Source of the DNA: an uncultured Bacillota bacterium
Lineage (GTDB): Bacteria > Bacillota > Dethiobacteria > DTU022 > UBA8154
Assembly: GCA_937973635.1 (NCBI GenBank)
Contig: CALJJZ010000062.1
Location: forward strand, 1-57,302
DNA length: 57,302 nucleotides
Direction of reading: 5' to 3'
Each line of letters begins with the position of its first letter. Position 1 is the first letter of the stretch. Positions 19,336 through 46,224 of the stretch are shown piece by piece. Both the position numbers and the translations under genes were made by a program. The notes under the pieces are model-generated. The model was given only the letters and a program-made list of their open reading frames with translations, made no database searches and was not told the origin of the DNA.

Positions 19336-20108
19336 ACCCCCGCTTTCTCGCCGGCTGCTAGCGCCGCCCCCAGAGCACTGATATAATCAGGATATGCAGG
19401 TATTAATATTTCCACTCCCAGATCTTCTTCTAACGCCCGCACAAAGCCCGGGTTATGAGCAACACCACCGATAATAACCACTTCTTTTTCTAAACCTATA
19501 CGCCTTACCAGAGCGGAAATACGGCTGGCCATAGCGACATGAATAGATTTTGCTATATCCTCTTTGGCCACAGGAGCATGGATAAGAGATATAACCTCTG
19601 ATTCAGCAAAAACAACGCACTGGGCATTCATGGGAACGGTTTTTTTTCCTCTGAGAGAGAGCTGTCCAATTTCTTCTACTGTTGTTTCCAGGGCCCGGCT
19701 CATAGACTCAAGGAAAGAACCTGTGCCAGCAGCACATTTTTCATTAATGGCAAAATCAACAACTTTACCTTCTTTGTCTATTTTAAGGGCAAACCCCTCT
19801 TCTTCTCCCACGTCAATCACCGTACGGGCTTCAGGGAAAAGCTTATTTACACCCCGGGCAGCAGCACTCACCTCGGTAAGGTGCCCTTCGGCAAAACTAA
19901 TAACATGCTTGCCCGCCCCTGTAACTACAGTATAAGCCAGATCTGCAACATCAAGGTTGGCCAGCCTGAGGGCTTCATTAAAAGCTTCCCGGGCCGCTTT
20001 TTCTTGATCAAAGCCGCTGGGCTTAAGGGCGCGGGCTATAATTTCTCCATTTTTTAAGATTACCGTTTTGGTCGTCTTGTTGCCTGCATCTATCCCGGCA
20101 GTAATCAT
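19332..20108 (-). CDS. bzdP: Benzoyl-CoA reductase ATPase/activase subunit, BzdP/BcrD-like
   Basis: This second ATPase subunit pairs with the downstream one. From the ATG at 20108 it starts 'MITAGIDAGNKTTKTVIL'. It has 'CAAGTG' (Cys125) and 'CVVFAESE' (Cys164) for the shared [4Fe-4S] cluster. The usual DIGGQD motif is replaced by 'DVGEEEG', which I recall as a feature of BcrD/BzdP-type subunits. A GTG at 20129 opens the frame but lacks a good ribosome site; GGGATG before the ATG and the family N-terminus favour 20108. The upstream region carries a 73-nt repeat. Family certain, subunit letter inferred. Confidence 0.83.
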   Translation of the reverse strand: MITAGIDAGNKTTKTVILKNGEIIARALKPSGFDQEKAAREAFNEALRLANLDVADLAYTVVTGAGKHVISFAEGHLTEVSAAARGVNKLFPEARTVIDVGEEEGFALKIDKEGKVVDFAINEKCAAGTGSFLESMSRALETTVEEIGQLSLRGKKTVPMNAQCVVFAESEVISLIHAPVAKEDIAKSIHVAMASRISALVRRIGLEKEVVIIGGVAHNPGFVRALEEDLGVEILIPAYPDYISALGAALAAGEKAGV

Positions 20109-20160
20109 GTTTACACATCCCGTTGCCACTTAATATAAATTTACTTCATTCCCTGTGACA

Positions 20161-20287: not shown

Positions 20288-21583
20288 TTAAAGCCGCTTG
20301 TCCACCACACGGGAAGCCTTGCCTTCAAAGCGGGGAAGGCTGCCTATGGGTTTAATCTCCACGGCACATCTGATCTCCAGGTAATCGTGGAGTTCTTTTT
20401 CCAGTCTGGAAACGAACCCTTCATCAATTTTAGCATCGGGCACAGGCTCTACTTCCACAGTCAGGGCATGTAGCCCCTTTTTATCGGTAACTATCAACTG
20501 CCAATTTTCACTTAGCTCAGGATGTTTTAACAAAACATACTCTACCTGGCTGGGGAAAACATTTGTCCCGCTTACAAGGAGCATATCATCAACGCGCCCC
20601 AGGAAACCGGTAAGACGCGGGTGGGTACGGCCACATTCACAGGTTTCCGTGTCAATTAAGACCCGGTCACCCGTACGGTAGCGCAAAATAGGCATGCCAT
20701 CAAAACTCAGGTTACTGATTACCAGCTCTCCCGGCTGGCCAGGTTTTACATATTCGTGCGTTACAGGGTCAATCAGCTCCACCAGGTAATGATCGGCCCA
20801 GATATGCTGGCCACACTCATATTCGCAATCCATGCTCATAGGCCCCCCCATCTCAGTGAGGCCATAGCAAACCCTCAACCCTCCGCCGTGGGCTTTATAG
20901 CCGAGGCGCTCGTTAATTCTTTTGCGCAATCCATCGGAACAGGGTTCACCGCCATGGAAGCCTAACCTCAGTTTTAAATCTTTAACCGGATCAATCCCTT
21001 TTTCTATTAATATTTCACCTATGTAAGCTGCATAGGAAGGTGTCCCTGTAAAAACAGTGGTACCCCATTCCTGCATCAGGCGCAGTTGCCGATCTGTTCC
21101 TCCAGAACTGGTGGGTATTACTTTGGCTCCTACCTTTTCCAGACCGTAATGGAAACCAAAACCGCCGGTAAAAAGACCATACCCGTGGGCTTGTTGGACA
21201 ATATCATTTTTAGTCAACCCTCCGGCCACAAAGTTTCTGGCCATACACTCGGCCCAAACCTCCAGGTCGTTTTTCGTATATGCCAACGCTGTGGGAACCC
21301 CTGTAGTACCAGACGTCATATGGATACGCACAACATCTTCCCAATTGCCAGAGAGCAGCCCCACGGGATAATTTTCTCGCAAATCTTTTTTTACACTGAA
21401 AGGAACTTTCTTGATATCTTCTCTCGTCTTCACATCACCTGGTTCAAGGCCGTTTTGTTTGTAGCGATCCCTGAAGAAAGGGTTTTTGTAAACATGGGCA
21501 AGTTGCTTTTTAAATTTTTCTAACTGCAACTCCATCAACTGTTCTTGTGGCATCGTTTCCCATTTTTCATTCAGGTAAGCCAT
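20288..21583 (-). CDS. PaaK-type aryl-CoA ligase (phenylacetate- or benzoate-CoA ligase)
   Basis: This AMP-forming ligase activates an aryl acid to its CoA thioester. The PaaK signatures are the N-terminal 'FKKQLAHVYKNPFFRDRY', the P-loop 'TSGTTGVPTALAYT', 'YGLTEMGGP', 'YRTGDR' and the C-terminal 'EIKPIGSLPRFEGKASRV'. 'CECGRTHPRL' may hold a metal or be structural. The frame opens with TTG at 21592, but AAAGGA spacing favours ATG 21583 (431 residues). Beside the reductase genes it is a good candidate for the benzoate-activating enzyme; phenylacetate or hydroxybenzoates are alternatives. Confidence 0.82.
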   Translation of the reverse strand: MAYLNEKWETMPQEQLMELQLEKFKKQLAHVYKNPFFRDRYKQNGLEPGDVKTREDIKKVPFSVKKDLRENYPVGLLSGNWEDVVRIHMTSGTTGVPTALAYTKNDLEVWAECMARNFVAGGLTKNDIVQQAHGYGLFTGGFGFHYGLEKVGAKVIPTSSGGTDRQLRLMQEWGTTVFTGTPSYAAYIGEILIEKGIDPVKDLKLRLGFHGGEPCSDGLRKRINERLGYKAHGGGLRVCYGLTEMGGPMSMDCEYECGQHIWADHYLVELIDPVTHEYVKPGQPGELVISNLSFDGMPILRYRTGDRVLIDTETCECGRTHPRLTGFLGRVDDMLLVSGTNVFPSQVEYVLLKHPELSENWQLIVTDKKGLHALTVEVEPVPDAKIDEGFVSRLEKELHDYLEIRCAVEIKPIGSLPRFEGKASRVVDKRL

Positions 21584-21758
21584 CAGCAACAATCCTTTCT
21601 TAATTTTTTTTCACTCTTTTTAAAAAATATATTGAATCAATAATTATAAAGAGTGATTCATATTATATCATAGACTATAATAAGAAAATTCTCAATACCC
21701 AAAAGCCTGCTTAGATTCACCAATAAGCATGATAAAAGGGTTAACCCTGGTAACTGCT

Positions 21759-31164: not shown

Positions 31165-32475
31165 CTACCTGCCAAAGAATAAATTTGGCAAATAGAGGGC
31201 GATCTGGGGAAATATCGTTAAAATGGCCATACAGGCAAAGATGGCCAGCAGAAAAGGCCAGATCCCTTTAAAAATTGTCATTACCGGCGTCTCCCGGTCC
31301 ACACCGGCCACCACATAGACATTGGCGCCTACGGGCGGCGTAATTACACCCATGCCCAGGGCCAGCACCACAATCACGCCAAACCAGATGGGATCAAAGC
31401 CGAGCTGCACGGCAACGGGATAAAATATAGGAACCGTCAGCAATATTAACGCCAGGGCGTCAATAAAACAACCGAGGATCAGGTAGATGATCAGAATAAC
31501 CACCAGAATGGCCACCGGCGGCAGGGGAAGCTCCACGGCCCATGCGGCCAAAGTCCCGGGCAGGCCGGTAACAGCCAAAAAACGTCCGTAGATAGAAGCG
31601 GCAGCCACGAGGAACATAATCATAGCAGAGATGCGCACCGAATCGTTGAGAGAATTAATGAAACCACGCCAACTAAACTGGCGTTTTACCAGAGCTACCA
31701 CCAAAGTGGCAAAGACCCCTACACCACCGGCCTCTGTGGGAGTAAAAATACCCATAAAGAGGCCTCCCATTACAGCAATAAAAATTACAATAACCTCCAC
31801 GCCTCCGCCTAACACGGCAATTATCTTATCTTTCCAGGACACGGTGGGCCCTGGAGGCGCCAGGGAAGGATTCAATGCCGTTTTCAAATAGGTAACCAGC
31901 ATAAACAGGCCCATCAACACAAAACCGGGCAAAATCCCGGCAGCAAAAAGCCTGTTAATTGATTCCCCTGTAGCAATACCATAAAGAATGAAAATAACAC
32001 TGGGCGGGATCATTACCCCGAGAATAGCCGCGGCAGCAATGGTTGCAGTGGAGAGAGAACGGTCATATTCATAACGCTTCATCTCCGGCAGGGCAACAGC
32101 GCTCATCGTCGCCGCCGTGGCCGTTGTGGAGCCGCAAATGGCACCAAAAGCAGTACAAGCTCCAATCGTAGCCAGAGCAAGTCCGGCCTTCATACTGCCC
32201 ATCACCTTGTAAGTAGCATCATATATTCTGGAACTCAAACCTGAATAATACGCAATATAACCCATCCAAACAAAAAGGGGCACCACAATCAAGGAATAAG
32301 AAGCAAAAGTGTTATACATGGTCTGACTGGAGATGGAAAGCATAGCTTTGGGGTTTGTGAGATAGGAATAACCCGTCATCCCCACTACCAGCATCACATA
32401 AGCCACAGGCATACGTAGAAAAAGGAGGAAGAGGAGTATAGCGATAGATAGCAGGCCGATATGTATGGGTGTCAT
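31165..32475 (-). CDS. dctM: TRAP transporter large permease DctM
   Basis: The 436-residue protein has about twelve hydrophobic segments and the DctM features 'ISSQTMYNTFASYSLIVVPLFVWMG', 'GSTTATAATMSAVALPEM', 'AAILGVMIPPSVIFILYG' and 'GVITPPVGANVYVVAG'. It is the ion-driven channel of a tripartite carboxylate importer. Its ATG overlaps the dctQ stop. The substrate is unknown, but the catabolic context suggests an aromatic or dicarboxylic acid. Confidence 0.92.
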   Translation of the reverse strand: MTPIHIGLLSIAILLFLLFLRMPVAYVMLVVGMTGYSYLTNPKAMLSISSQTMYNTFASYSLIVVPLFVWMGYIAYYSGLSSRIYDATYKVMGSMKAGLALATIGACTAFGAICGSTTATAATMSAVALPEMKRYEYDRSLSTATIAAAAILGVMIPPSVIFILYGIATGESINRLFAAGILPGFVLMGLFMLVTYLKTALNPSLAPPGPTVSWKDKIIAVLGGGVEVIVIFIAVMGGLFMGIFTPTEAGGVGVFATLVVALVKRQFSWRGFINSLNDSVRISAMIMFLVAAASIYGRFLAVTGLPGTLAAWAVELPLPPVAILVVILIIYLILGCFIDALALILLTVPIFYPVAVQLGFDPIWFGVIVVLALGMGVITPPVGANVYVVAGVDRETPVMTIFKGIWPFLLAIFACMAILTIFPQIALYLPNLFFGR

Positions 32476-32969
32476 TCTGTCTCACTTCCTTTTACAGCCA
32501 TAATTACAGACTTCAACAGGTCTTTAAAGATAACAAGGGCAAGCATGATAAAGCCAACGGCAACCAAATAAATAGCCGGGTAGACAGGCAACAAGAGGTT
32601 TGTTGTCACATACCCCCTGGCCATCATCCTGGCGGCATATACAAGGGTTTCTCTGGCCAAAATAAAGGTAAAATAAAGAGACAAGGCATAGGTAATGGTA
32701 TCAATAACAGCCTGAACACGTAGCGGCATCTTTTCCACAAATACGCCCACCATGATATGCCCTTTCATCGCTGCGGTATAGGCTACCGACATGCCCAGAA
32801 GCACAGCGCCGGACAACTCTACCAATTCCACCGTGCCGGGTACCGGTTTCCAGGGAATACGGGCAATCACATTGGCTACAATAATGGCCATACAAAAAAA
32901 CAAGGCGAACTGACCGACCTGGGCTGTGCGCCAGGTCAGGGTGCGCACGAACCTTTCAAAATAATTCAT
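32472..32969 (-). CDS. dctQ: TRAP transporter small permease DctQ
   Basis: This 165-residue protein has four membrane segments and the DctQ-type 'VVANVIARIPWKPVPGTVELVELSG' region. It bridges the binding protein to DctM. It is encoded between dctP and dctM with a four-base overlap into dctM. Confidence 0.88.
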   Translation of the reverse strand: MNYFERFVRTLTWRTAQVGQFALFFCMAIIVANVIARIPWKPVPGTVELVELSGAVLLGMSVAYTAAMKGHIMVGVFVEKMPLRVQAVIDTITYALSLYFTFILARETLVYAARMMARGYVTTNLLLPVYPAIYLVAVGFIMLALVIFKDLLKSVIMAVKGSETE

Positions 32970-33052
32970 AGAACAGCCTCCCTAAATTAGTATTGACTCT
33001 CCTGAGTACAAGCAGCGTCTACTTCCCATGTCCACTGTGCTGAAAAGAGCTG

Positions 33053-33083
33053 CCCATCCCGGGATAAACAATCCCGGGATGGG
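33053..33083 (-). other. Strong stem-loop between dctP and dctQ
   Basis: CCCATCCCGGGAT (33053-33065) and ATCCCGGGATGGG (33071-33083) form a perfect 13-bp stem with a 5-base loop. It lies in the 160-base gap between dctP and dctQ and lacks a T-run. It probably stabilises or attenuates so that the binding protein is made in excess. Confidence 0.75.
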
Positions 33084-33131
33084 AGAATTATTTGCTTTTC
33101 CACCTGCTTTGGAATTTATTTCTAAAAGTGC

Positions 33132-34280
33132 TTATTTGCCATAGTCACCGTATTTCTGTGACATTTCAGCATCCAGCTTCACAACCATTTCGTAGATCTC
33201 TTTACCCGGCAGCCCGGCGGCATTGGTCTTTTCAATCCACCTGTCAATGATACCGCCAAGCTGGCCCTTCCACCTTGCCTGCTCACCGATAGAGAGCTCA
33301 ATTACCTCATGACCAAATTCTTTTACGGCATATTCCTGACCGGCCTTAGTATGATCCGTTCTCAGCTTTCCGTACTCCATGACGTACTTCTCGTTAACCT
33401 CATCAAAGATTTTTTGTACTTCCGGCGGGAAAGAGTTCCAGGTATCCCAGTTCATTACTTTCATAAATACAATATTGTACACAAAGGGTGTTTTGGTAAT
33501 GAACTTGGTAACCTCGGCCAACTTAAAGCCTTTTAGTGTATCCGTGGGAGCAAGGATGCCGTCTACAATGCCTTGCCCCAGGGCAATGTACGCATCGGAC
33601 ATGGGCATACCCACGGGCACCGCGCCAAGGGCGGTAACAGAGGGAACGGTACCGCCCACAGCCCTGATCTGCAGGCCGGCCAAATCCTCCAGTGCCCGTA
33701 CTGGTTTGTTGGTCATAAAGTCACCTGGTCCTGTAGCCCAGAAGAACATTATCTTGACATCTTCATATTCTTTCTGCATCAGTGCAGATTGCTTGTATGC
33801 CTCATTGACCGTCATGGAAGCCACGAGAGCGTTGTCATTGTTGTAACCGGGCAGCTCAAAAGCCTCCGTTACAGGGAAAAGACCCGGCGTATAGGCAGGG
33901 CATGTACTCCCAAGGTCCGCAGCACCGGCTGCCACCCCTTCATAAATCTCTACTGCTGAGAGCAACACGTTTCCGGGATGGAAGGTGAAGTTGATTGTAT
34001 GGGGCGTTTCAGCTTTAACCCGATCCGAAATCTCCTTTGCCCAGGCTTCGTGTCCCTCAGCTACCTGGAAGTCAACCGCAGGCCAGAAAGTAGCAAATTG
34101 CAGGTTCCAGGTTTTTCCCGGTTCCGGAGCAGGTGCCGGAGCCGGGGCCGGAGCCGGAGCAGGGGCCGGGGCCGGAGCCGGAGCAGCTGGAGCAGGGGCC
34201 TGCTTGGGTGCGCAGCCTGCAAAAACAGGCAGCAAGACTAAGGCCACTACCATCAAAACAACAAGCATCTTCACTTTCAT
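33132..34280 (-). CDS. dctP: TRAP transporter substrate-binding lipoprotein DctP
   Basis: The 382-residue protein has a lipoprotein signal peptide ('LPVFAGC', Cys23), then a linker of about 25 residues that is almost pure Ala-Pro repeat. The DctP-type domain follows, with 'LQIRAVGGTVPSVTALGAVPVGMPMSDAYIALGQGIVDG'. The conserved Arg in 'IRAVGG' should bind the ligand carboxylate. It delivers substrate to DctQM. The GC-rich linker-coding DNA (about 34120-34200) is low complexity. Confidence 0.9.
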   Translation of the reverse strand: MKVKMLVVLMVVALVLLPVFAGCAPKQAPAPAAPAPAPAPAPAPAPAPAPAPEPGKTWNLQFATFWPAVDFQVAEGHEAWAKEISDRVKAETPHTINFTFHPGNVLLSAVEIYEGVAAGAADLGSTCPAYTPGLFPVTEAFELPGYNNDNALVASMTVNEAYKQSALMQKEYEDVKIMFFWATGPGDFMTNKPVRALEDLAGLQIRAVGGTVPSVTALGAVPVGMPMSDAYIALGQGIVDGILAPTDTLKGFKLAEVTKFITKTPFVYNIVFMKVMNWDTWNSFPPEVQKIFDEVNEKYVMEYGKLRTDHTKAGQEYAVKEFGHEVIELSIGEQARWKGQLGGIIDRWIEKTNAAGLPGKEIYEMVVKLDAEMSQKYGDYGK

Positions 34281-34716: not shown

Positions 34717-36303
34717 TTAAAGCGCCTGGCTCCAGGTTCCATATTTTTCCCGCAAGACACGGTGCAGGATCTTCCCCGTTGCCGTCCGGGGCATCTCTTC
34801 ATCGGTAATAAAATCAACCGATTTAGGCCGTTTAAACCCGGCCATCCGTTGTTTGCAGTAATCTATCAGCTCTTTCTCCATGGCGGCATCGCCCTGATGG
34901 CCTGGATGCAGAATAACTACGGCTTTAACGGTTTCGCCCCATTTTTCATCGGGTACGCCGATAACGGCAACGTCTTTAACTGCCGGGTGAGAAGCAATAA
35001 CTTCTTCCACCTCTGAGGGAAATACGTTTTCTCCCCCAGTAATAATCATGTTTTTCTTGCGATCAACAAGGAAGTAGTAACCGTCTTTATCTCTTCTCCC
35101 CATATCTCCGGCTGTGCACCACTCGCCACGGAACACCTCCCGTGTCTTTTCCGGGTCTTTCCAGTACTCCCGGAACGCATTGGGAGAGCGGGTGTAAAGC
35201 TCGCCGACTTCACCATCTGGAACCTCATTGCCTTCTTCATCCAACAACTTGATGCGGTCAATGCCAAATACCTCACGCCCAATAGAACCAAGTTTGGTCA
35301 ACTGGTCTTCCGGACGCAAGTAGGTAATCAAGCCTGCCTCGGTGGAACCGTATGCCTCCCAGAGCTCTGCAGACTTAAAGAAATCCATAATGCTGAGCTT
35401 TAACTCCTTCCTGGCTGGAGCAGAAGAAATAAGCAATTGCCTGACAGAGCTTACATCATATTTGGCCCGGTTTTCAGCAGGCAAGGAAAGGATCATCTGG
35501 TAATGTGTAGGAACCAAAGAAGTAAAAGTTACCTTGTACTCGGACATGGTTTTCAACAGGTCTTCTGGATCAAAGCTAACCATGTTATATACCATTACAG
35601 GGGCAGTTACATAGGTATAGGGGAAAGAATAGTAAATAGAGTTGACATGACACATAGGCATAACCATTAGAGGTTTATCTGTGGGCCTGACTCCCATGTT
35701 AATATTGTTAATCATGTACTGGGCAATATAGCTTTCATGGGTGCGCACAACGCCCTTTGGTTTTCCGGTCGTACCGGAAGTATACATAATTGTCCAGACG
35801 TCGGCCGCGTCAACCAGGAGATCCGGTTCCTTTACGTCTCCCCGGCTCAACACTTCTTCATATTGGGTATAACCTGCGGGGGTTGCTCCCGAACCCATAT
35901 AGATATAATTATTTGCCGGAACAGTGAGAAGTTGATCCCGAATACTGTTGATGGCTTCGATAAAAGGCTCCTCCACAATAATTGCTTTGCACTCTGCATG
36001 ATTAACAATATAGGCAAAATCAGCAGGCGCCAGTCGAAACATGAGAGGAACGGCAACCTGCCCTCCTTTGGCGCAGGCGGCATAGATCTCCATCCATTCC
36101 ACCCGGTTGTAGGCAAGGATAGCTATCCGATCGCCATAACCAACCCCCATAGCCGTTAACATATTGGCAAGACGGCAGGAACGCTCGTTCCATTCCTTAA
36201 AAGTGAAATTTTTGAACTTGTCTTGACATCCCAGCTTCTCCGGAAAATTCAAAGCATGCATCTTCAAGACAGTGCCAGCATTCATCCATTTGCTTACAGT
36301 CAT
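34717..36303 (-). CDS. AMP-forming acyl-CoA ligase (class I)
   Basis: The 528-residue adenylate-forming ligase has the P-loop 'YTSGTTGKPKGVVRTH', 'LWEAYGSTEAGL', 'CTAGDMGRRDKDGYYFLVDRKKNMIITGGENVFPSEVE' (hinge region) and the catalytic Lys in 'PRTATGKILHRVL'. It is a medium/long-chain or aryl acid activator; the substrate is unresolved. It is 12 bases downstream of a second ligase of the same family, so the two are one transcription unit with the reductase subunits upstream. Confidence 0.85.
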   Translation of the reverse strand: MTVSKWMNAGTVLKMHALNFPEKLGCQDKFKNFTFKEWNERSCRLANMLTAMGVGYGDRIAILAYNRVEWMEIYAACAKGGQVAVPLMFRLAPADFAYIVNHAECKAIIVEEPFIEAINSIRDQLLTVPANNYIYMGSGATPAGYTQYEEVLSRGDVKEPDLLVDAADVWTIMYTSGTTGKPKGVVRTHESYIAQYMINNINMGVRPTDKPLMVMPMCHVNSIYYSFPYTYVTAPVMVYNMVSFDPEDLLKTMSEYKVTFTSLVPTHYQMILSLPAENRAKYDVSSVRQLLISSAPARKELKLSIMDFFKSAELWEAYGSTEAGLITYLRPEDQLTKLGSIGREVFGIDRIKLLDEEGNEVPDGEVGELYTRSPNAFREYWKDPEKTREVFRGEWCTAGDMGRRDKDGYYFLVDRKKNMIITGGENVFPSEVEEVIASHPAVKDVAVIGVPDEKWGETVKAVVILHPGHQGDAAMEKELIDYCKQRMAGFKRPKSVDFITDEEMPRTATGKILHRVLREKYGTWSQAL

Positions 36304-36315: not shown

Positions 36316-37878
36316 TCACTTTGCCCCGATGTATTTTTGCCTCATGGCCGGTTTATTGATCTTCCCTGTGACATTGCGCAGCACTTCATCAAAGACCACC
36401 TTTTCAGGCCATTTATATTTGGCCAGACCCTGGGCCGCGCAAAACTCTACCACTTCTTTTTCTTCCATCGTTTCCCCGGGATGCAGCTGGACAATAGCCA
36501 TGGCTATCTCCACCAGCCGCTCATGGGGATAACCGATAACCGCAACATCGGCGATCTTGGGGTGACGGCGCAATACATCTTCGATCTCTGCGGGGAATAT
36601 ATTTTCGCCGCCCCTGATGATCAGGTCTTTTTTGCGATCTGCAATATAGAAATAGCCGTCTTCATCTTTCCGTACTAAATCCCCCGTATATAACCATCCA
36701 TCTTTAATCGTTGCCGCAGTCATCTCGGGGTTACGGAAATACTCTTTCATGTTGCGTGTGCCTTTTAGGAGCAGCTCTCCAACTTCCCCGGGAGGCAGGT
36801 CATTACCCTCTTCATCCACGACACGGGCCAACGTATTAAAGGTTGGTTTTCCGATAGAACCAGGCCGTTTCAGGACGTCTTCGTCATAGAGGTTAAGCGT
36901 TCCCCCGCCGCCACCTTCTGTAATACCAAAAATATTGCCCGTTTTGAAGGGGAACAGCCTTTTCATATCTTCAAAAAGGACATAAGGGACAGGCTGGGCG
37001 CCGATCACGATGCTGCCTGTTACGTGGGAAAGGTCGTAGTCTTTAAGATCAATAATACCTTTTTTAATAGCGTTTACCGTATCAGACATAGTTGGCACAG
37101 TAACCCACCCATTGTTTACCTTTTCATTGCAGATGGCATCCAATAAATACCTTGGATCTGAAAGATCGAGCAAAATAACTATTTTCCCTCCCGCCAGGTA
37201 GCAGGGGAAAGAGAGGAAAAAGCTGCCGCTGTGATAAAAGGGGTGGGGCGCCAGATAGACAGTCTCATGGCCCGTGCTGTAGGTAAGGGCATTGCCCAGA
37301 CCGATCTGATAAAGGGTATTGTGGGTCTGGCAAACTGGCTTAGGTGCTCCCGTGGTGCCGGAGGTAAACATAAGTTCGGCCGGATCGTCCCAATCTACGT
37401 CCACCAGAACATCCTCATCAGAAGAGTTGTTCAGCACCTCCTGGTAAGAAATCATATCGGCCGGCACGTTCTCGCCCAAAACGATATAGTGGGTAATGGA
37501 GGACATCTCTTTTTGAATAGGCTGCACCTTAGAAAGAAAACCGTCGCCCATAATCATTACTTTGGGCTTGCTGGCATCAGCAGCGAATTTTATGTCGGAG
37601 GAGGCAAAACGGAAATTTAACGGCACAGCCACGGCCCCCACACGTAAAATAGCATAAAACGTCGTTATCCACTCCATGCTGTTCATCTGCAGGTGTAATA
37701 CAAAATCACCCTTTTGGACCCCCAGTTTTTGCAGGTAATTGGCTACTTTGTTTGTTTCTGCATTAAATTCCTTCCAGGTCATGGAACGCCTAAGGTTTTT
37801 TGACGGTGTTAGCTCTGCCAGGAACTCCTTCTCGGGGTATTTTTGTGCGTTGACGATTCCATACCAAGCAAAATTCAT
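36316..37878 (-). CDS. AMP-forming acyl-CoA ligase (class I)
   Basis: The 520-residue relative of the downstream ligase has 'FTSGTTGAPKPVCQTHN', 'GNIFGITEGGGGG', 'LYTGDLVRKDEDGYFYIADRKKDLIIRGGENIFPAEIE' and an A10-like 'RNVTGKINKPAM'. In the P-loop the usual Lys-Gly is Lys-Pro, which could alter ATP binding. It follows bzdO after 83 bases. A role in activating benzoate, a cyclohexane carboxylate or pimelate is possible but not shown by sequence. Confidence 0.84.
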   Translation of the reverse strand: MNFAWYGIVNAQKYPEKEFLAELTPSKNLRRSMTWKEFNAETNKVANYLQKLGVQKGDFVLHLQMNSMEWITTFYAILRVGAVAVPLNFRFASSDIKFAADASKPKVMIMGDGFLSKVQPIQKEMSSITHYIVLGENVPADMISYQEVLNNSSDEDVLVDVDWDDPAELMFTSGTTGAPKPVCQTHNTLYQIGLGNALTYSTGHETVYLAPHPFYHSGSFFLSFPCYLAGGKIVILLDLSDPRYLLDAICNEKVNNGWVTVPTMSDTVNAIKKGIIDLKDYDLSHVTGSIVIGAQPVPYVLFEDMKRLFPFKTGNIFGITEGGGGGTLNLYDEDVLKRPGSIGKPTFNTLARVVDEEGNDLPPGEVGELLLKGTRNMKEYFRNPEMTAATIKDGWLYTGDLVRKDEDGYFYIADRKKDLIIRGGENIFPAEIEDVLRRHPKIADVAVIGYPHERLVEIAMAIVQLHPGETMEEKEVVEFCAAQGLAKYKWPEKVVFDEVLRNVTGKINKPAMRQKYIGAK

Positions 37879-37961: not shown

Positions 37962-39179
37962 TCAGGCCGACTCAAGTTGTTCAAAAAAGGGTTCTAGCTT
38001 TGCCATGATATGTGCTTCGGAAAAAAACCTCAGATCCGACATGTCAGCCTCAAAGACAACTCCTGGCAATCCAGTAAGCTTGCTAATTATATTTTTTTTG
38101 TCATAAAGGCCAAAGGCGTTAGGCTTGCAGCTACGGTTTGAAAAAAGCATAAAACCATCAACATCATATTTTTGCATTAATTTTATCTTTCTTTGAATGC
38201 GGTGCTCAAAAACACGGTTTACAAATTCTTCAGTGTAGTTCTCCGCAAGGCTTTCCAGCGGCCGATCCAAATCAAAGGAGTAGGCCCAGGAGTGAGTATA
38301 CTGTGAAACGGCTACCAGAGCATGATGGGACGCACAAATATCGGAAAACCAGCGCATCTTAGGCCAGAGAGGGATATGGTCAAAGTACAGCTTATAGCGT
38401 TCATTTTCAATAGCATAAACTTTATTCTTAATCCGCTCCTCCAATTCCTGCTTTAATTTACGGTAATAATCTACCGCCTGTGGCGTCCCCCGCCATGTTA
38501 CAATGGGAGCCATGTGGAAGCAGGCATCAAAAAAACCAAATGGCGCCGGCTTCATAGCTGCCGTATCAAGGATCTCATTCCAGAGACGGCATGCTTCATT
38601 GGCATAACCCATTACTTCACGCAAGCGGTCATAATCAAACTTTTTGCCTGTATAGTCCTCCAGGAAAGCAATTAGTTCCTGCAGCTGAGCAACATAGTAG
38701 CGTGTGGTCAGCTCGTCCAGTTCCATGCCGACCTGAGGCGCGTCCAGCAAAAAGTAAGGAGCATGGTAAAAACGTCCAGCTACCTCAAACCATTTGGAAA
38801 GACTACCGCACTGTGTATTGCAGCAAAGGAGCAAATCTGGTTTAACTATCTCTCCTAGTGGGTGCTCCTGACTGTGGGCATCGCCAATACCACAGCGAGA
38901 ATAAGCGCAAAGATCATGAGCATAACCCTTTGCTTCAGCTACAATTGAAAATTTGTCAGCCAGTTTGCGTGCAGAAGCCACAGCACCAAAATTTTCAGGG
39001 TAGAAAGGAAATAGGCCGGCAGCATAGATAATTTCAACAGGGGAGACAGCGGTTACCCAAGCGACGGGAATGCCCTTTTCCTTAGCTTCTGCACCCTGGG
39101 CATAATAATCGGCCATTAATTGTTTCATTAATTCAGCTGTTTGCCAAGGCACCTTATCGGACAGCGTCCTCACCCCCAA
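37962..39179 (-). CDS. bzdO: Benzoyl-CoA reductase catalytic-side subunit, BzdO/BcrB-like
   Basis: This protein of up to 405 residues is in the 2-hydroxyacyl-CoA dehydratase D-component/benzoyl-CoA reductase family. Cluster ligands are expected among Cys91/96 ('CAYSRCGIGDA'), Cys120/124 and Cys351 ('NRSCKPNAFG'). With its partner it binds benzoyl-CoA and [4Fe-4S] clusters and carries out the two-electron ring reduction. The TTG at 39179 opens the frame, overlapping bzdN by 26 bases; GTGs at 39173 or 39152 are alternatives. Relatives dehydrate 2-hydroxyacyl-CoAs, but dch, had and oah nearby favour the reductase. Confidence 0.8.
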   Translation of the reverse strand: MGVRTLSDKVPWQTAELMKQLMADYYAQGAEAKEKGIPVAWVTAVSPVEIIYAAGLFPFYPENFGAVASARKLADKFSIVAEAKGYAHDLCAYSRCGIGDAHSQEHPLGEIVKPDLLLCCNTQCGSLSKWFEVAGRFYHAPYFLLDAPQVGMELDELTTRYYVAQLQELIAFLEDYTGKKFDYDRLREVMGYANEACRLWNEILDTAAMKPAPFGFFDACFHMAPIVTWRGTPQAVDYYRKLKQELEERIKNKVYAIENERYKLYFDHIPLWPKMRWFSDICASHHALVAVSQYTHSWAYSFDLDRPLESLAENYTEEFVNRVFEHRIQRKIKLMQKYDVDGFMLFSNRSCKPNAFGLYDKKNIISKLTGLPGVVFEADMSDLRFFSEAHIMAKLEPFFEQLESA

Positions 39180-40338
39180 GCATTTCTATAAACGCATGCA
39201 CTCTTGTCTGTAACTGGCCGAGCGGAATACCACCATAAGCAGTCTCTATACGAATAGCTGGAATACCCGCTTTCTCCATAGCCTGCATATTATCATAATA
39301 ATCGTAATTCTCAGGTTCGCAGAATTTTAAATGCAGGAATATTACGCCTCCAGCTTCCTTTTCCCGGGCCAGCTTGACCAGGTATTCCGCCCTGCGCTTT
39401 TCCCGGATTTCATAGAAAGCTGCAGGCATTCGCTTTAACTGGCGCTGCACCAGCGCTTCAAGGGGATCACCGTTAGCTGCCACATCCGCCTCCAGGTAGC
39501 GAAACCCATTTTTTAGGTCATCAGCGACAACTACCCCCCCTTTTTCATTAATAAAATCAAGCAGCTCCAATGGTTCCAGCAATGTACCGGAGATCACTAG
39601 TTGGTGCCTGCTTGCCCTGGTGAAACACTCCTTTTCTTCCTTTAAGACAGCAAATAGCTGCCTTAGCAACTGGTTGAGCTTCTCCCGGGGCATAACCATG
39701 GCAGCCTTGATAATTTTAAAAAGGTCCTTGCTGCTAAGAACCTGCGGGGCCTCGACCTGTATCCCGTAAAGCTGCCTGAGAAGCTGGCGATTATGGTTAT
39801 AAAGGGCGATGCTATTCTTTAATGCCCCTTCTTCGATCTTCTTCCCCCGGAATTCTTCCAACCTTTTTTTAATACGTTCCAATTCCCCGTAAAGATAGGC
39901 CCCGGCACTGGGACGGTCAACCTGCCGCGGTAAGCGATAGTTCTCCATCAAAGGAAGGGGACGAACATGTTTCCAGATACCCAAAAGCATACGGGTAGTA
40001 TCGCAAGTCTGCGGGATGATCAAACCATCCAGGAAAGAGATTTTGTCCTGCAAGGCCACGGCTAAAGCATTGCGGGAAAAGGAACAAGCCCAGGTTTGCA
40101 GGTGGGCATCGGCAAATTCCAGCTTTCCTTCCTCTGCATTGACTGCATAAGGGAGAAATCCGGCCGCGTGAATTAATTCTTCCGGCACATCGGATAGTAA
40201 AAAACCTATAACCTTTCCTCCATGTTCTTCTTGCCATTGCGTGGCCTGCCTGGCGGGATTTTCTGCCGCTTCTCTAAGTATTTCCAAAGCTTCTAAGCTA
40301 TTCAAGTTTCCTGCACCCTCTTCCCTGTTTTGCAGCAT
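39154..40338 (-). CDS. bzdN: Benzoyl-CoA reductase catalytic-side subunit, BzdN/BcrC-like
   Basis: The 394-residue subunit pairs with the downstream one. Three well-placed cysteines are Cys85 ('WACSFSRN'), Cys112 ('PQTCDTTR') and Cys340 ('LKFCEPENYDYY'). The last, followed by 'RIETAYG', matches the C-terminal cluster region of BcrC/BzdN and related dehydratases. Its ATG shares one base with the stop of the 2-hydroxyacid dehydrogenase gene upstream. The ATPase partners are 18 kb away, an unusual split. Confidence 0.8.
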   Translation of the reverse strand: MLQNREEGAGNLNSLEALEILREAAENPARQATQWQEEHGGKVIGFLLSDVPEELIHAAGFLPYAVNAEEGKLEFADAHLQTWACSFSRNALAVALQDKISFLDGLIIPQTCDTTRMLLGIWKHVRPLPLMENYRLPRQVDRPSAGAYLYGELERIKKRLEEFRGKKIEEGALKNSIALYNHNRQLLRQLYGIQVEAPQVLSSKDLFKIIKAAMVMPREKLNQLLRQLFAVLKEEKECFTRASRHQLVISGTLLEPLELLDFINEKGGVVVADDLKNGFRYLEADVAANGDPLEALVQRQLKRMPAAFYEIREKRRAEYLVKLAREKEAGGVIFLHLKFCEPENYDYYDNMQAMEKAGIPAIRIETAYGGIPLGQLQTRVHAFIEMLGGEDAVR

Positions 40339-41342
40339 TAATACCCCCCAAACCCGGGAACAACATTGGTTAAGGGCAACCCTTGCAGCCAGCGCTCAAT
40401 ATTGTCTACAAAAGCCCCACCAAATCTTTTAGCATACATGTCGGTCCAACCAGAGCAGTGAGGTGTAATCAGCAAATTTTTGGTGCCCCAAATCTCGTCT
40501 TCAGGTGGCAAATAAGAAGGTAATGGGTTCTTTATCCACTGCGTATCATTGGCAGCGCCGGCAATCCACCCTTCATTAAGGGCTTTCATCAAGTCTTCTT
40601 TAATGATTAAGGAACCCCGTGCGCAGTTGATCAGATATGCGCTTTTTTTCATCAACTTAAAAGTCCGCTCGTTCATCATCCCTATGGTGTCGCTTGTTTC
40701 CGGACAAGAGAGGACAAGAAAATCACTTTGGGCAATAACTTCGTCCACCTGGTTGTTAAGGTAGACTTTATCCACGAAAGGCACATCCATTATTTGTATA
40801 TCTGTGCCGATTACATACATATCAAAAGCTTTAGCCCTTTTGGCAATCTGACGGCCAATGCCGCCAAGCCCCACGATACCAATAGTTTTACCGTAAAGCT
40901 CTTCTCCCCGGATACGTATGAATTTCCTTTCTTTTTGGTTTTCCCATATCTGCGTGAATTTTTTTGCCAGATTAAGCATCAAACCAAGTACATATTCGGC
41001 AATAGGTATGCCTGAGCCGCCCGGTAAATTTAGCAAAGGCACATGGGGGGGGATCTTGCCCCACTTCTCCCAGTGATCATAGCCTGCGCTCAAGGTCATA
41101 ATCCACTGTAAATCCTTCATCTCCGGTATGCGTTCTACAATAACACCAGTCCCTATAATATGTGTATCCAGATACTCGTCAGGAGTAAATTCCGCAGCCC
41201 CGTTTTGCAGCAGGCGAACACGTATTTCACCGTTCTTTACTTTTTCTGGAAAACGCTCTTTGATCAATTCCTCGTACTCGTCTGGCGTGCCAAGCCCTGG
41301 TTGCAATACAACAAGAATGTTTAATGGATTAAAATGATGCAC
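40338..41342 (-). CDS. D-2-hydroxyacid dehydrogenase family NAD(P) oxidoreductase
   Basis: The 334-residue protein has the Rossmann loop 'GIVGLGGIGRQIAKRA' (GLGGIG at 158-163) and the catalytic Arg in 'NCARGSLI'. The catalytic His is in 'ITPHCSGWTD', and a Glu between them is expected. Family members reduce 2-oxoacids to (R)-2-hydroxyacids or oxidise them. It is translationally coupled (TAATG) to bzdN, and no step of the known benzoyl-CoA pathway needs such an enzyme, so its role here is unclear. A GTG start with GGGGAGTG upstream is used. Confidence 0.82.
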   Translation of the reverse strand: MHHFNPLNILVVLQPGLGTPDEYEELIKERFPEKVKNGEIRVRLLQNGAAEFTPDEYLDTHIIGTGVIVERIPEMKDLQWIMTLSAGYDHWEKWGKIPPHVPLLNLPGGSGIPIAEYVLGLMLNLAKKFTQIWENQKERKFIRIRGEELYGKTIGIVGLGGIGRQIAKRAKAFDMYVIGTDIQIMDVPFVDKVYLNNQVDEVIAQSDFLVLSCPETSDTIGMMNERTFKLMKKSAYLINCARGSLIIKEDLMKALNEGWIAGAANDTQWIKNPLPSYLPPEDEIWGTKNLLITPHCSGWTDMYAKRFGGAFVDNIERWLQGLPLTNVVPGFGGY

Positions 41343-41573: not shown

Positions 41574-42403
41574 TCAAGCGATATTTAACAGAACAGCTGC
41601 GTTTCCTCCAAGTATTCTTCCTTGACTTTCCTGGTTTAGCCCCAAGCTTTTGATTTCAGCAATATTTCCTGCGATGTCAATAACGCCAGGCCAATCAGAT
41701 CCAAAAATAACCTTGCTTGCTATGGTTTCTAATTCAGGGAAATAAGATAACAGCTTTTGCGGAGGCAATCCTGCTATTTCCAGGAAGACATTTTGATGCA
41801 ACCTGCATAAAAAAAGGCTCGATCGTACCAAAAACCCCGGCCACCGTGAACCATGATAAGGTTTAAGCTGGGAAAATCCACGGCTACGTCGTCAAGAAAG
41901 ATAGGATCGCCATACTTTAAACGGGCCCCTTTAAATAAAGAAGTTCCCGTATGAATCATGACGGGAACATTTAACTCTTGCGCACAGGCGTAAAGAGGAT
42001 AAAGCAAAGGGTCGTTAACATAATAATACTGGTATGTGGGATAAAGCTTTAAGCCGCAGAAACCGGCATTGACTAATTTTTTTAGTTCTGTCGCTAAGTC
42101 TGGTATCAGATGAGGATTTATGCTGGCAAAAGGGATCAACCCTTTATACCCTTTGCAAAAATTTAAAACGTACTCATTGGGGCAAATGCCAACAACAAGG
42201 GGGGAATAGTCAGCCATAACCACAGCATAGTCAATACCGCACCTTTTCAGATAACTAGCAAAATAAGCAGGGTCACTGAATTTTGCATAAAAATCATCCC
42301 AGTCATTAGCTTTTTGCAAGTTTTTAATCCAGTTTAGTGCAGGATCCCTATAGAAATCATAATATATTGGGTGCGTGTGAAAATCAATGACGGGGATACC
42401 CAA
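41574..42403 (-). pseudogene. Amidohydrolase-2 family metal-dependent hydrolase/decarboxylase, frameshifted
   Basis: Two overlapping frames together make one TIM-barrel protein of about 276 residues. The first carries 'IDFHTHP' (HxH metal site), 'GLKLYP', 'VMIHTG' and 'IMVHGG'; the second resumes with 'FLCRLHQNVFLEIAGLPP' and 'VIFGSDWPG' (catalytic Asp). The break is at a run of seven A (41809-41815; T7 in the coding strand); one extra T would restore the frame. The family includes decarboxylases of aromatic acids. GGAGG supports a TTG start at 42403. Mutation, sequencing error and slippage cannot be separated here. Confidence 0.78.
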
Positions 42404-42468
42404 CTGGTAGATGCCTCCTCCATTAAAGCCAGCAAACCTTCTCCTGCAAAGGCATTCCTGAAATAGCA

Positions 42469-42499
42469 CTCCCGCCTACTTTTTTCAAGCAGGCGGGAG
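42469..42499 (-). terminator. Hairpin after oah
   Basis: CTCCCGCCT (42469-42477) pairs with AGGCGGGAG (42491-42499) around a 13-base loop. It lies 20 bases after the oah stop codon. No T-run follows on the minus strand, so it may be a weak terminator or mRNA stabiliser. Confidence 0.5.
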
Positions 42500-42519: not shown

Positions 42520-43653
42520 TTATTCTTTACGCGGCCCCAATACGGCGTCCACGAGCTCTTGATCAAACGGTTTCCCTTCGGCAAGCAACTGGCGATACTT
42601 AACAAAGTCAATAACGTCTCTGCCCGTAAGCTTCTTCGTGTTAAAGGCATTGAAGCCAAGATATGCCTCTGTCTGCATATTGGCGCCAAGCCAGTGACGG
42701 AAGAAGTTCTTGTTTGTATCCCAGAAGAACCTCTTCTTCTGGCGGATAGCATCGATGGACATCATCAGGCAGTTGGGGAAAAGGTTGGTAAAGGTCCAGA
42801 CGATCCTGTTGACCTCTTTATCAACCAGGCTAAAATCGGTCTCAGCTTTGGCCACAATCTCTTTAGCTTTTGCTGCCGCTTCACCGGTGACATATTCACC
42901 GTAAACAATGGCCCCGTCATCAACATATTTGTCTGTAACGACTAAGGGGTTACGCACAAACTTGCCATCTACCTTTAATACTGGCAGTGCCTTGGAGATC
43001 AAGCCAAGCCGCTCCATCTTATAGGCGCTCCACATTTCGCAGGAAATACAATTCCACATCGCCTGCTCCATGGTAAGGAACTCGGGCAGGAAATCGCCGG
43101 AACCGCCAACTGGTGCCGAGCCATGCTTGGGCCCTGCCTGACCGAAAATTGCCAGGTCTGAAGAAATGGCGAGGTCACAGGCCAAGCCAATCTCTTGCCC
43201 GCCAGCCACGCGCATACCATTTACACGGCAGATAACCGGCTTCTTGGCCATAAGGATCGAATCCACCATGGCATTGAAGAGATCCATATAAGCCATATAT
43301 TCACTGGGGTTCAAGCTGTAGTATTCGGCGTATTCCTTGGTATTGCCTCCGGTGCAGAAAGCTTTATCGCCTACAGCTGTAAAAATAATCGCTACTACGG
43401 AACGGTCTGCAGATCCCCTTTGCATACCGGCGATAACACCTTTGACCATTTCCGTAGTATAAGAGTTATATTGAGTGGGGTTGTTCAAAGTCACCCATGC
43501 AGTGTAAAGCCCTTCCACAACATTGCCAGCCGGGTCTACTACCGGCTTCTTTTCAAACATAACGCATGGTGCTTCTGTCCCAAAATAATTTTCTCCGAAA
43601 AGTTGATGGTCTTTAAGATCAGTCTGCCGGGGCCACTTAAATACGTCTACCAT
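42520..43653 (-). CDS. oah: 6-oxocyclohex-1-ene-1-carbonyl-CoA hydrolase (ring-opening), Oah/BamA
   Basis: Oah adds two waters to 6-oxocyclohex-1-ene-1-carbonyl-CoA and cleaves the ring to 3-hydroxypimelyl-CoA; bamA/oah is the standard marker for anaerobic aromatic degraders. The 377-residue crotonase-type protein has the family N-terminus 'LKDHQLFGENYFGTEAP', 'FCTGGNTKEYAEYY', 'NGMRVAGGQEIGLACDL' and 'FGQAGPKHGSAPVGGSGDFLP', all typical of BamA. Length matches the Thauera enzyme. It has AAGGAGG seven bases before ATG and its own promoter-like sequence. Confidence 0.94.
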   Translation of the reverse strand: MVDVFKWPRQTDLKDHQLFGENYFGTEAPCVMFEKKPVVDPAGNVVEGLYTAWVTLNNPTQYNSYTTEMVKGVIAGMQRGSADRSVVAIIFTAVGDKAFCTGGNTKEYAEYYSLNPSEYMAYMDLFNAMVDSILMAKKPVICRVNGMRVAGGQEIGLACDLAISSDLAIFGQAGPKHGSAPVGGSGDFLPEFLTMEQAMWNCISCEMWSAYKMERLGLISKALPVLKVDGKFVRNPLVVTDKYVDDGAIVYGEYVTGEAAAKAKEIVAKAETDFSLVDKEVNRIVWTFTNLFPNCLMMSIDAIRQKKRFFWDTNKNFFRHWLGANMQTEAYLGFNAFNTKKLTGRDVIDFVKYRQLLAEGKPFDQELVDAVLGPRKE

Positions 43654-43827: not shown

Positions 43828-44238
43828 TTACGCCGGGACCAGTTCATAACTAATTTGGCCTCCGGGAAGGAAAGCCGTTACCGCTTTCAGATCCATACCC
43901 ACTTTTATTTGTCCTTCCTCCAGATCCTTGCTTAAACGCCCAAAAACTTTTACACCATCAAAATCTGCCAGAGCCAAGGTATAAGGTACATCGTCCTCAA
44001 AGCCTGTGGGGCCATAATGTACCCGGGTAAAACTGACCAGCTTGCCTGTACCCTCTATCTTAAACCATTCCATGGTACTGTCCGGGCACCAGGGGCAATC
44101 GGCACGGGGCGGAAAATAGATGCGGCCGCACTGGGAACATTTGGTGGCGGTAAGATCTCCTTTTTCCAGGTTTTCTATGAAAGCGCCAACCTTTGTTTGT
44201 GCAGTGAAGCTTACACGGCCAAATTTTTCAAAGCCCAT
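43828..44238 (-). CDS. DUF35 zinc-ribbon/OB-fold acyl-CoA-binding protein (thiolase partner)
   Basis: The 136-residue protein has an N-terminal rubredoxin-like zinc ribbon ('KCSQCGRIYFPPRADCPWC', CxxC-x10-CxxC), then an OB fold with 'GTGKLVSFTRVHYGPTGF'. DUF35 proteins bind acyl-CoA and pair with SCP-x-type thiolases; BbsA of the toluene pathway is an example. The gene is seven bases after the thiolase gene, which supports a two-subunit thiolase. Confidence 0.88.
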   Translation of the reverse strand: MGFEKFGRVSFTAQTKVGAFIENLEKGDLTATKCSQCGRIYFPPRADCPWCPDSTMEWFKIEGTGKLVSFTRVHYGPTGFEDDVPYTLALADFDGVKVFGRLSKDLEEGQIKVGMDLKAVTAFLPGGQISYELVPA

Positions 44239-44244
44239 AGTTTT

Positions 44245-45399
44245 CTACCTCCCAAAGATAATCACATTACCATAAATCCCCACACCACCAATATTATGCA
44301 CCAAACCGATCTCTGCGTTTGGAACCTGAATCGCTCCTGCTTCGTCGCGTAGCTGCAAAACAATAGTGCGCACCTGCGAACCGCCTGTAGCCCCAATGGG
44401 ATGACCTTTGGACAGGAGTCCCCCGTCTACGTTTACAGGGATTTTACCTTCAAGATAAGTTTCGCCATTCCTGATTAATTCTACACCTTTACCTGGCTCG
44501 GCAAAACCCAGATTTTCATAAGCCATCAACTCCGCGATGGTAAAACAATCATGGACTTCAGCCACATCAATATCGGCGGGCCCGACACCTGCCATCTCAT
44601 AAGCCTGTTTGGCCGCCAGACGGGCGCTGCTCAGACCGTCCAGGGATTCTCTGCCTGTCATCGTCAGTGAAGCAGTAGCAGCTCCCAGCCCCAGGATCCA
44701 AACCGGTTTTTTGCAGATCTCTTTGGCCCTCTCTGCACTGGCCAAGATAATACAGGAAGACCCGTCAGCATTTGCACAGCAGTCAAATCTCTTTAACGGT
44801 GTAGCTACCGGCTCCGCAGATAGAACCTGATCCAGTTCCAGGCCTTTGCGATATACGGCTTTATCGTTAAGCTGCCCATATTTGGCTGCTTTAACACGGA
44901 TTAAGGCCAGATCTTTTTCAGTGCTGCCATAGCGTTCAAAATGGGCACGGGCATGCATGGCATAATAAGCAGGCATCATCGTCCCAAAGGGGGATTCCCA
45001 CATAATATCGGCACCCCGGCCCATTCGTTCCTGCGAATCGGCAGAGCTTATTTCAGACATTTTCTGGAACCCCAGTACCAACACGATGTCGTGCAACCCT
45101 GATTTAATCAGGGAATAGCCCACCCTGATGCCCGTAGTACTGGAAGAACATACGGTTTCAATAGCAAAAGTAGGCTGGGGGTTTAATCCCAGATATTCAG
45201 CCATTAGGCCGGAGGGGCTCCTCTGTTTATCATATTCCGGTGCAGAACAGATCAGAGAAGCATCAATATCAGCGGGCGTTATGCCTGCGTCTTTAATCGC
45301 TTCACGGAAAGCTTCGAAAGCAAGTTCACGAATTGAACCCTCATAATTGCGGAAAAAAGTGCTCTGTCCCACACCGATGACCGCCACATCTTTGGGCAT
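44245..45399 (-). CDS. SCP-x-type thiolase
   Basis: The ~384-residue thiolase has the active-site Cys84 in 'ETVCSSSTTG', 'EVHDCFTIAELM' and the C-terminal 'GHPIGATGGSQ' motif with catalytic His. It is expected to cleave a 3-oxoacyl-CoA such as 3-oxopimelyl-CoA to glutaryl-CoA and acetyl-CoA. The frame opens at 45435, but GGGAGG seven bases before the ATG at 45399 and the family N-terminus support the shorter form. It lacks the usual second active-site Cys of classic degradative thiolases, as SCP-x-like members do. Confidence 0.87.
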   Translation of the reverse strand: MPKDVAVIGVGQSTFFRNYEGSIRELAFEAFREAIKDAGITPADIDASLICSAPEYDKQRSPSGLMAEYLGLNPQPTFAIETVCSSSTTGIRVGYSLIKSGLHDIVLVLGFQKMSEISSADSQERMGRGADIMWESPFGTMMPAYYAMHARAHFERYGSTEKDLALIRVKAAKYGQLNDKAVYRKGLELDQVLSAEPVATPLKRFDCCANADGSSCIILASAERAKEICKKPVWILGLGAATASLTMTGRESLDGLSSARLAAKQAYEMAGVGPADIDVAEVHDCFTIAELMAYENLGFAEPGKGVELIRNGETYLEGKIPVNVDGGLLSKGHPIGATGGSQVRTIVLQLRDEAGAIQVPNAEIGLVHNIGGVGIYGNVIIFGR

Positions 45400-45477
45400 A
45401 TTATTTCCTCCCTCATACAAAATATCTCTGAACAAAAATATAAGCTTACCCTTATTATTATTTAAGCAATTTTAAAC

Positions 45478-46224
45478 TTAAGGCATAACCATACCGCCAT
45501 CAATGCATATGAGCTGTCCCGTAATATAGCTGGAGTCATCGGAAGCAAGGAAGACAACGGCAGGGCCAATTTCCTCAGGCTTGCCAAAACGGCCCATGGG
45601 AATACGCTCAAGATACTTCTCCATAAAACGGGGATCTTTGGCTATGGTCTGAGTCATATCCGTTTCCGCCATGGGAGCGATGGTGTTAACCCTGATATTA
45701 TAACGGGCAAGCTCCTTGGCCGCAGATTTAGTTAGGGCATAAACCCCCCCCTTAGCTGCAGTATAGTTAACTTGCCCGATAGTCCCCAGCAAACCGGCCG
45801 AAGAAGTGATATTAATGATGGAACCGCTCTTTTGTTCCATCATCGGAGCTGCCACTGCCTGCAGGCAAAAAAATGCTCCTGTAAGGTTAATCCTGATAAT
45901 CTCATTCCAGTCTTCCTCGGTCATCTTCCAGAGCATAGCCGGCTTGGAGATACCTGCATTGTTAAAAAGCACATCCACCCGGCCAAAATGCTCAAGCGTA
46001 TCCTTCACCATCTCTACCACCTGGGCGCGAACACCTACATCAACCTGTTTAACCAAAACACGTCGGCCCATTTCGCGGGCGGCACTGGCAATGGGATCAT
46101 CCTCTTTAATACTGCGGCTTACCAGCACCAGGTCCGCCCCTTCCTTTGCCATCAAAAGGGCCACCGCCTCGCCGATGCCCTTACGTGCTCCGGTAACAAT
46201 CGCTACTTTACCCTGCAACTTCAT
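45478..46224 (-). CDS. Short-chain dehydrogenase/reductase (3-hydroxyacyl-CoA dehydrogenase candidate)
   Basis: The 248-residue SDR has the NAD(P) loop TGARKGIG (11-18), NNAG (88-91), catalytic Ser about 141, Tyr154 and Lys158, and the C-terminal 'SSYITGQLICIDGG'. By position before thiolase-DUF35 it could oxidise 3-hydroxypimelyl-CoA to the 3-oxo form. Relatives also act in fatty acid synthesis (FabG) and in benzylsuccinate oxidation (BbsC/D). It is the first gene behind the promoter at 46333-46362. Confidence 0.85.
   Translation of the reverse strand: MKLQGKVAIVTGARKGIGEAVALLMAKEGADLVLVSRSIKEDDPIASAAREMGRRVLVKQVDVGVRAQVVEMVKDTLEHFGRVDVLFNNAGISKPAMLWKMTEEDWNEIIRINLTGAFFCLQAVAAPMMEQKSGSIINITSSAGLLGTIGQVNYTAAKGGVYALTKSAAKELARYNIRVNTIAPMAETDMTQTIAKDPRFMEKYLERIPMGRFGKPEEIGPAVVFLASDDSSYITGQLICIDGGMVMP

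Follow-up and report, generated by a model that had tools for sequence, protein, structure and literature searches.

D2HDH, N and O form a compact gene unit

A 57,302-nucleotide contig of an uncultured Bacillota bacterium (GenBank assembly GCA_937973635.1, contig CALJJZ010000062.1; the whole stretch is referred to here as the window) contains a gene for a D-2-hydroxyacid dehydrogenase (D2HDH) immediately followed by two genes of the PF06050 family, which we refer to as N and O, and the locus raises the question of what a 2-hydroxyacid enzyme does in the company of benzoyl-CoA degradation genes. An earlier, sequence-only reading labelled the pair bzdN and bzdO and framed them as benzoyl-CoA reductase subunits, offering as a third option that they constitute a 2-hydroxyacyl-CoA dehydratase (HAD), with which the dehydrogenase would make sense. 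We computed gene order, family placement, residue patterns and co-occurrence with the ring reductase protein BamB (coordinates are in Table 1). The third option appears to have been largely right, and the earlier interpretation as a whole is partly supported.

The D2HDH gene starts with GTG, preceded by AGGGGAG, and its TAA stop codon has one A in common with the ATG of N (TATTAATG), as previously described. The 26-base overlap of N and O is also as described, given a TTG start for O, and is shorter if later in-frame starts are used. In most relatives N and O overlap by 4–17 bases, and there is an apparent gap of 4–201 bases between D2HDH and N. Of the tight coupling proposed for the three genes, the overlaps are real and the adjacency is conserved, but the one-base overlap is absent from relatives; it is a detail of the window genome, and it is the gene order that is conserved.

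N and O resemble dehydratase subunits

Scores with NCBIfam models place neither protein with the Bzd-type reductases. N scores 212 bits with HadC, 202 with BcrC and 150 with BzdN (cut-off 454), and O scores 256 bits with HadB, 163 with BcrB and 130 with BzdO (cut-off 449); the top match of both among solved structures is 2-hydroxyisocaproyl-CoA dehydratase (3o3m). A 68-sequence tree puts O in a clade with HadB (support 0.999); BzdO falls outside it, as does MbdO, represented by one Mbd sequence.

The double cubane cluster of BzdN is held by six cysteines and is not found in HAD enzymes (PMC11971306). Of these cysteines N retains just Cys 85, 112 and 340 and has L, K and A at positions 48, 276 and 306, for which a ligand role is reported in BzdN (PMC11971306); the double-cubane cysteines are not present. 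Orthologues of N have the same three, with one extra in loci L019 and L020. O retains three cluster cysteines, the glutamate, and an NRSCK motif as in HadB, and both it and its orthologues have Leu in place of His131 of BzdO. The broad features of a HAD-type dehydratase are thereby found, namely two PF06050 subunits with three cluster cysteines each and Glu in O, together with an ASKHA activator, which adjoins N/O in genomes G161 and G279; the window genome has act1 and act2 in the window and a further activator on contig C44.

The name BzdNO is rejected for this pair on model scores, residues, the tree and genome G146 (below), and the framing of N and O as benzoyl-CoA reductase subunits is not supported. 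The earlier naming is understandable, since Oah, Had and a bzdQ-like activator in the window all score above their cut-offs.

A separate ring reductase accompanies N/O

The window genome encodes six PF06050 proteins, and there is no true BzdN or BzdO among them. It does encode a full-length BamB (650 aa; 794 bits to 4z3w, E 1e-237), whose gene adjoins that of an Fe-S protein, a candidate BamC. We examined co-occurrence in a sample of 60 genomes centred on the window genome, taking at least 68% identity to define an O orthologue; with counts that ignore relatedness, BamB is present in 24 of the 25 genomes with an O orthologue versus 2 of the 35 without, and within family f3 in 9/9 versus 0/23. 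In G066 and G071 the contig with D2HDH-N-O also carries BamB, a BamC-like gene and Oah, and has neither an activator pair nor a second N/O pair.

Two further observations concern related genes. A second PF06050 pair with an activator lies at positions 10387-13705 of locus L026 (contig C44 of the window genome), and its N-like subunit has six cluster cysteines; the pair adjoins lon and a ribosome-assembly GTPase gene, and its top score is with the double-cubane reductase model. BamB-like genes with an in-frame TGA are present at G034:C11:55986-57986, G035:C9:14810-16813 and G024:C85:5913-7910, for which selenocysteine is one possible reason.

D2HDH is conserved with N/O

In 19 of the 20 order relatives with a visible flank, D2HDH immediately precedes N. 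The exception is G034, in which the same operon begins with another D2HDH subfamily; dehydrogenases of a different subfamily (80-84 bits) occupy this position in G279:C42 and one G161 copy as well, and function would therefore be kept there despite the gene difference. A paralogous cluster (L100), with an O that is 52% identical, again has N, a ligase and D2HDH (the cluster being 41-52% identical). D2HDH orthologues (57-63% identity) are also found in the same cluster in G279, G161, G146, G013 (an Armatimonadetes metagenome-assembled genome, MAG) and G014 (a Desulfovirgula MAG), and in each of these the orthologue is the top match by a wide margin. Absence of the gene from all related clusters is not what is seen; nearly all of them carry it, and from these sequence comparisons D2HDH is a dedicated subfamily tied to N/O.

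The neighbouring genes in these clusters encode indolepyruvate:ferredoxin oxidoreductase (IorAB), CoA ligases, enoyl-CoA hydratase, 3-hydroxyacyl-CoA dehydrogenase and thiolase. In G279 a single run contains D2HDH, ligase, activator, N, O, IorA, IorB, PaaK, 3-hydroxyacyl-CoA dehydrogenase, thiolase and hydratase. G014 has IorAB, hydratase, 3-hydroxyacyl-CoA dehydrogenase, thiolase, N/O, three ligases, D2HDH, a TRAP transporter and BamB together, and G013 has a similar set, BamB included. IorA of L007 scores over its equivalog cut-off. G146 contains a complete BzdNOPQ set, with N, O and Q over curated cut-offs (519 and 696 bits for BzdN and BzdO), a few kilobases from a HAD-type N/O; bzdNOPQ and the HAD-type pair with IorAB and D2HDH form one cluster at about 23 to 54 kb of G146:C10. 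By sequence, this is the clearest evidence for different jobs of BzdNO and the HAD-type pair, and the cluster is useful for comparing both enzymes within one organism.

In D2HDH itself the catalytic Arg242 and His295 are invariant, the PF02826 NAD-binding domain is present, and Asp181 is at the end of beta-2, from which the enzyme is judged to be of the NAD type. A short insertion (SYLPP) follows residue 272 in the subfamily. A fold search gives the Haloferax D2-HDH 5mh6 first, an enzyme that binds 2-ketohexanoate. Among the 2-hydroxyacids previously suggested, phenyllactate fits best; a mandelate side branch is rejected on chemical reasoning, because mandelyl-CoA offers no beta-hydrogen for elimination.

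A proposed aryl-lactyl-CoA dehydratase route

Family scores, the tree, cysteines, gene neighbourhoods and the separate reductase all favour a dehydratase, which also explains the dehydrogenase, and we consider it fairly likely that D2HDH-N-O is a 2-hydroxyacyl-CoA dehydratase module leading from arylpyruvate through aryl-lactate, aryl-lactyl-CoA and cinnamoyl-CoA to benzoyl-CoA and acetyl-CoA. D2HDH would use NADH to convert an aryl-2-oxoacid to the (R)-2-hydroxyacid, the likeliest substrate being phenylpyruvate or a related compound, and a neighbouring AMP-forming ligase would form the CoA ester; the substrates are suggested by gene content, and the direction of D2HDH and the ligase and activator that serve the module are similarly presumed. 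An ATP-driven ASKHA activator would start N/O by injecting one electron, and N/O would remove water through a ketyl radical, a mechanism taken from the family, to give aryl-acryloyl-CoA (cinnamoyl-CoA from phenyllactate). Beta-oxidation, in the window through the short-chain dehydrogenase (SDR) and BbsAB-like thiolase pair, would then yield benzoyl-CoA and acetyl-CoA. In oxygen-free sediments the module would probably channel compounds of the phenylalanine or phenylacetate type into the breakdown of benzoyl-CoA.

Parts of this scheme resemble known systems. The HadBC/HadI/LdhA system of Clostridioides difficile (3o3m, 4eht) has two PF06050 subunits with the single-cluster cysteine pattern, Glu and NRSCK, an ASKHA activator and an upstream D-2-hydroxyacid dehydrogenase; HadBC and N/O are only about 25–30% identical by alignment, however, and the Had system uses a CoA transferase, whereas the window has a CoA ligase and lies beside benzoyl-CoA degradation genes. 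FldABC/FldI/FldH of Clostridium sporogenes perform the same arylpyruvate to aryl-acryloyl-CoA chemistry as proposed here, according to PMC13416013, which cites Dickert et al. 2002, and are likened by chemistry; their product is reduced to arylpropionate, whereas here there are beta-oxidation and BamB genes. The Bzd-type class I benzoyl-CoA reductase (PDB 8s02) shares superfamily and fold family with N/O, and bzdP/Q-like activators are present in the window, but model scores are low, the double-cubane cysteines and His131 are lacking, and the clade is separate. A hypothetical phenylpyruvate to benzoyl-CoA route in the benzene degrader BzS1 runs through these reactions in the same sequence, with a phenyllactyl-CoA dehydratase among them (PMC13416013), although its gene candidates are scattered and weak, and here there is one contiguous, conserved cluster.

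Desulfococcus multivorans is similar in a different respect. It grows on phenylacetate, phenylpyruvate and phenyllactate. A TRAP system, CoA ligase, dehydrogenase, hydratase, thiolase and IorAB are formed by this organism, and their genes make up, with those for a two-component system and phenyllactate, a phenylacetate/phenylpyruvate cluster near its bam genes that is similar to those described above (PMC5109826). It is without padB and padEFGHI, the last step to benzoyl-CoA is called unclear, and no dehydratase step is reported in that paper; its genes Dmul_C24850-70 are likened by description only (PMC5109826). These findings support the substrate class and suggest a phenylacetate route.

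Several observations weigh against a dehydratase module of this kind. N and O are below every curated NCBIfam cut-off, including the HadB and HadC equivalogs (NF052455/NF052456; 256/750 and 212/700 bits), which are specific for the hydroxyisocaproyl-CoA enzyme. The three cysteines of N recur in MbdN, which belongs to an aryl-CoA reductase; the cysteine test therefore excludes the Bzd subtype only, and we dropped it as a complete way of telling N from every aryl-CoA reductase. The catalytic Glu usual at the EPLP position is missing from D2HDH, the residue being Asn272 in the window and N/K/D/T/Q across the subfamily, with Glu just in outgroups; another acid may replace it, and the fold model is unreliable around this position (confidence below 50 at residues 269-275). 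The iorAB genes are on another contig of the window genome and not in the window cluster, the activators nearest N/O in the genus are bzdP/Q-like, and the model does not account for a conserved amidohydrolase in the cluster.

A possible phenylacetate route and alternative explanations

A more specific version of the dehydratase scheme is a Pad-independent linear phenylacetate route in which IorAB acts as a reductive carboxylase, a tentative and rather doubtful proposition drawn from gene content. PaaK would form phenylacetyl-CoA, IorAB in reverse would give phenylpyruvate, and D2HDH, ligase and N/O would lead through phenyllactate and phenyllactyl-CoA to cinnamoyl-CoA, with hydratase, dehydrogenase and thiolase yielding benzoyl-CoA and acetyl-CoA for the class II pathway. 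All steps from CoA activation to thiolysis are in one gene run in G279, with nearly the same set beside BamB in G014 and G013, and if IorAB is a carboxylase then each gene of the G279 run would have a place in one linear pathway. Reversal of IorAB-type enzymes occurs in aryl-acid assimilation of methanogens, and our literature searches found nothing on a reverse indolepyruvate:ferredoxin oxidoreductase with phenylacetate.

Reduction of the enoyl-CoA to arylpropionate as an electron sink, as in the Stickland-type fld branch of C. sporogenes, would replace the formation of benzoyl-CoA. The enzyme types (dehydrogenase, dehydratase, activator) match known fld/had pathways and IorAB would serve as the oxidative partner, but this appears unlikely: beta-oxidation is what the clustered genes for hydratase, 3-hydroxyacyl-CoA dehydrogenase and thiolase indicate, as does the co-occurrence with BamB, and among the clusters examined an acyl-CoA dehydrogenase-like open reading frame, judged by eye, is seen in one only (G071, near BamB).

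It is quite improbable that N/O belongs, as a divergent member, to the ATP-dependent class I aryl-CoA reductases and uses the bzdP/Q-like pair 17 kb downstream, with D2HDH in an unrelated side branch. The MbdN cysteine pattern, the bzdQ-like activator above its cut-off, the Had and Oah genes within the same 57 kb and the absence of any other bzdNO from the genome are consistent with it, but the genome has BamB, most N/O-bearing relatives lack the P/Q-like pair in the cluster, true bzdNOPQ and the N/O pair occur together in G146, O is placed with HadB by tree and models, and the linkage to D2HDH is left unexplained. We judge equally improbable that D2HDH acts oxidatively, such that imported aryl-lactate is converted to arylpyruvate and by IorAB to arylacetyl-CoA, with N/O acting on another substrate. 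Although phenyllactate oxidation is attributed to genes of a similar cluster in D. multivorans (PMC5109826) and a TRAP transporter lies within the cluster, D2HDH adjoins N/O even at loci without IorAB (the window, L008 and L010), and in genomes outside the order D2HDH, ligase and activator continue to accompany N/O. An aliphatic 2-oxoacid processed through the same steps, as in HadBC leucine fermentation, is very improbable. In its favour, the characterised dehydratase most similar to N/O acts on 2-hydroxyisocaproyl-CoA, and the nearest fold binds 2-ketohexanoate. Against it stand an IorA that exceeds its cut-off and belongs to a family of arylpyruvate enzymes, the presence in the clusters of a PaaK-like ligase, a BbsAB-like thiolase and benzoyl-CoA genes, and the BamB co-occurrence.

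Other genes in the window

Of the CoA ligases, ligB is the one commonest with N/O outside the order, adjoining N/O or the activator in G279, G161, G013 and G014. The amidohydrolase gene between Oah and D2HDH is intact in relatives, and the frameshift in the window is either real decay or an assembly error. The bzdP/Q-like activator pair, 17 kb from N/O, has this position in the window genus only, and the top PDB match of act1 is HadI (4eht, 203 bits). The pair is orphaned, without bzdNO, in the genus, and close relatives of both are within the complete bzdNOPQ of G146; it may be a leftover of a lost class I reductase that now serves N/O, or another activator may serve N/O. Sigma-54 sites are no more frequent in the region than by chance (30 matches versus 35 expected), with none just upstream of D2HDH, and sigma-70-like sites are present upstream of D2HDH at 41467-41510, although the regional count is near chance.

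Table 1. Features of the window discussed in the text, with positions in the 57,302-nucleotide stretch.
Feature	Coordinates	Strand	Basis
D-2-hydroxyacid dehydrogenase (D2HDH), predicted NAD-type 2-oxoacid reductase	40338..41342	-	334 aa; PF02826 168 bits
N: HadC-like dehydratase small subunit (earlier label bzdN)	39154..40338	-	394 aa; PF06050
O: HadB-like dehydratase catalytic subunit (earlier label bzdO), start codon uncertain	37962..39179	-	405 aa; PF06050
ligA: AMP-forming CoA ligase, candidate 2-hydroxyacid activator	36316..37878	-	PF00501; kept beside N/O or IorAB
ligB: AMP-forming CoA ligase	34717..36303	-	PF00501
SDR, candidate 3-hydroxyacyl-CoA dehydrogenase	45478..46224	-	adh_short_C2 229 bits; conserved in cluster
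Thiolase, partly BbsB-like, candidate aryl-3-oxoacyl-CoA thiolase	44245..45435	-	PRK06064 above cut-off; BbsB 176 bits
OB-fold/zinc-ribbon thiolase partner (BbsA-like)	43828..44238	-	PF01796, PF12172
Oah	42520..43653	-	TIGR03200 575 bits, cut-off 464
Amidohydrolase, frameshifted near 41816-41855	41580..42472	-	PF04909; tblastn pieces in two frames
TRAP transporter (DctP, DctQ, DctM)	31165..34280	-	NF037995; conserved with cluster
Two ASKHA activators (act1, act2), bzdP/bzdQ-like, possible N/O activator in genus	18457..20129	-	TIGR03192 407 bits, cut-off 380
PaaK-like CoA ligase	20288..21592	-	PaaK model 379 bits, below cut-off 646
Enoyl-CoA hydratase, Dch candidate	17577..18341	-	TIGR03189 157 bits, below cut-off 292; adjoins Had
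Had	16490..17554	-	TIGR03201 480 bits, cut-off 339

Implications

Fermenting clostridia are known to have HAD-type dehydratases for aromatic lactates, and there the product is reduced and excreted. Here such dehydratase chemistry appears to be linked to complete degradation by way of benzoyl-CoA, and the cluster is conserved across several Bacillota families and one Armatimonadetes MAG. If the proposed route is correct, strict anaerobes would have an entry for phenylalanine, phenyllactate or phenylacetate, an open step in sulfate reducers would become testable, and PF06050 pairs that lie beside Had and Oah genes should not be given a benzoyl-CoA reductase label by default; a Pad-independent route could explain how D. 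multivorans uses phenylacetate without padB and padEFGHI, a step that is left open in PMC5109826.

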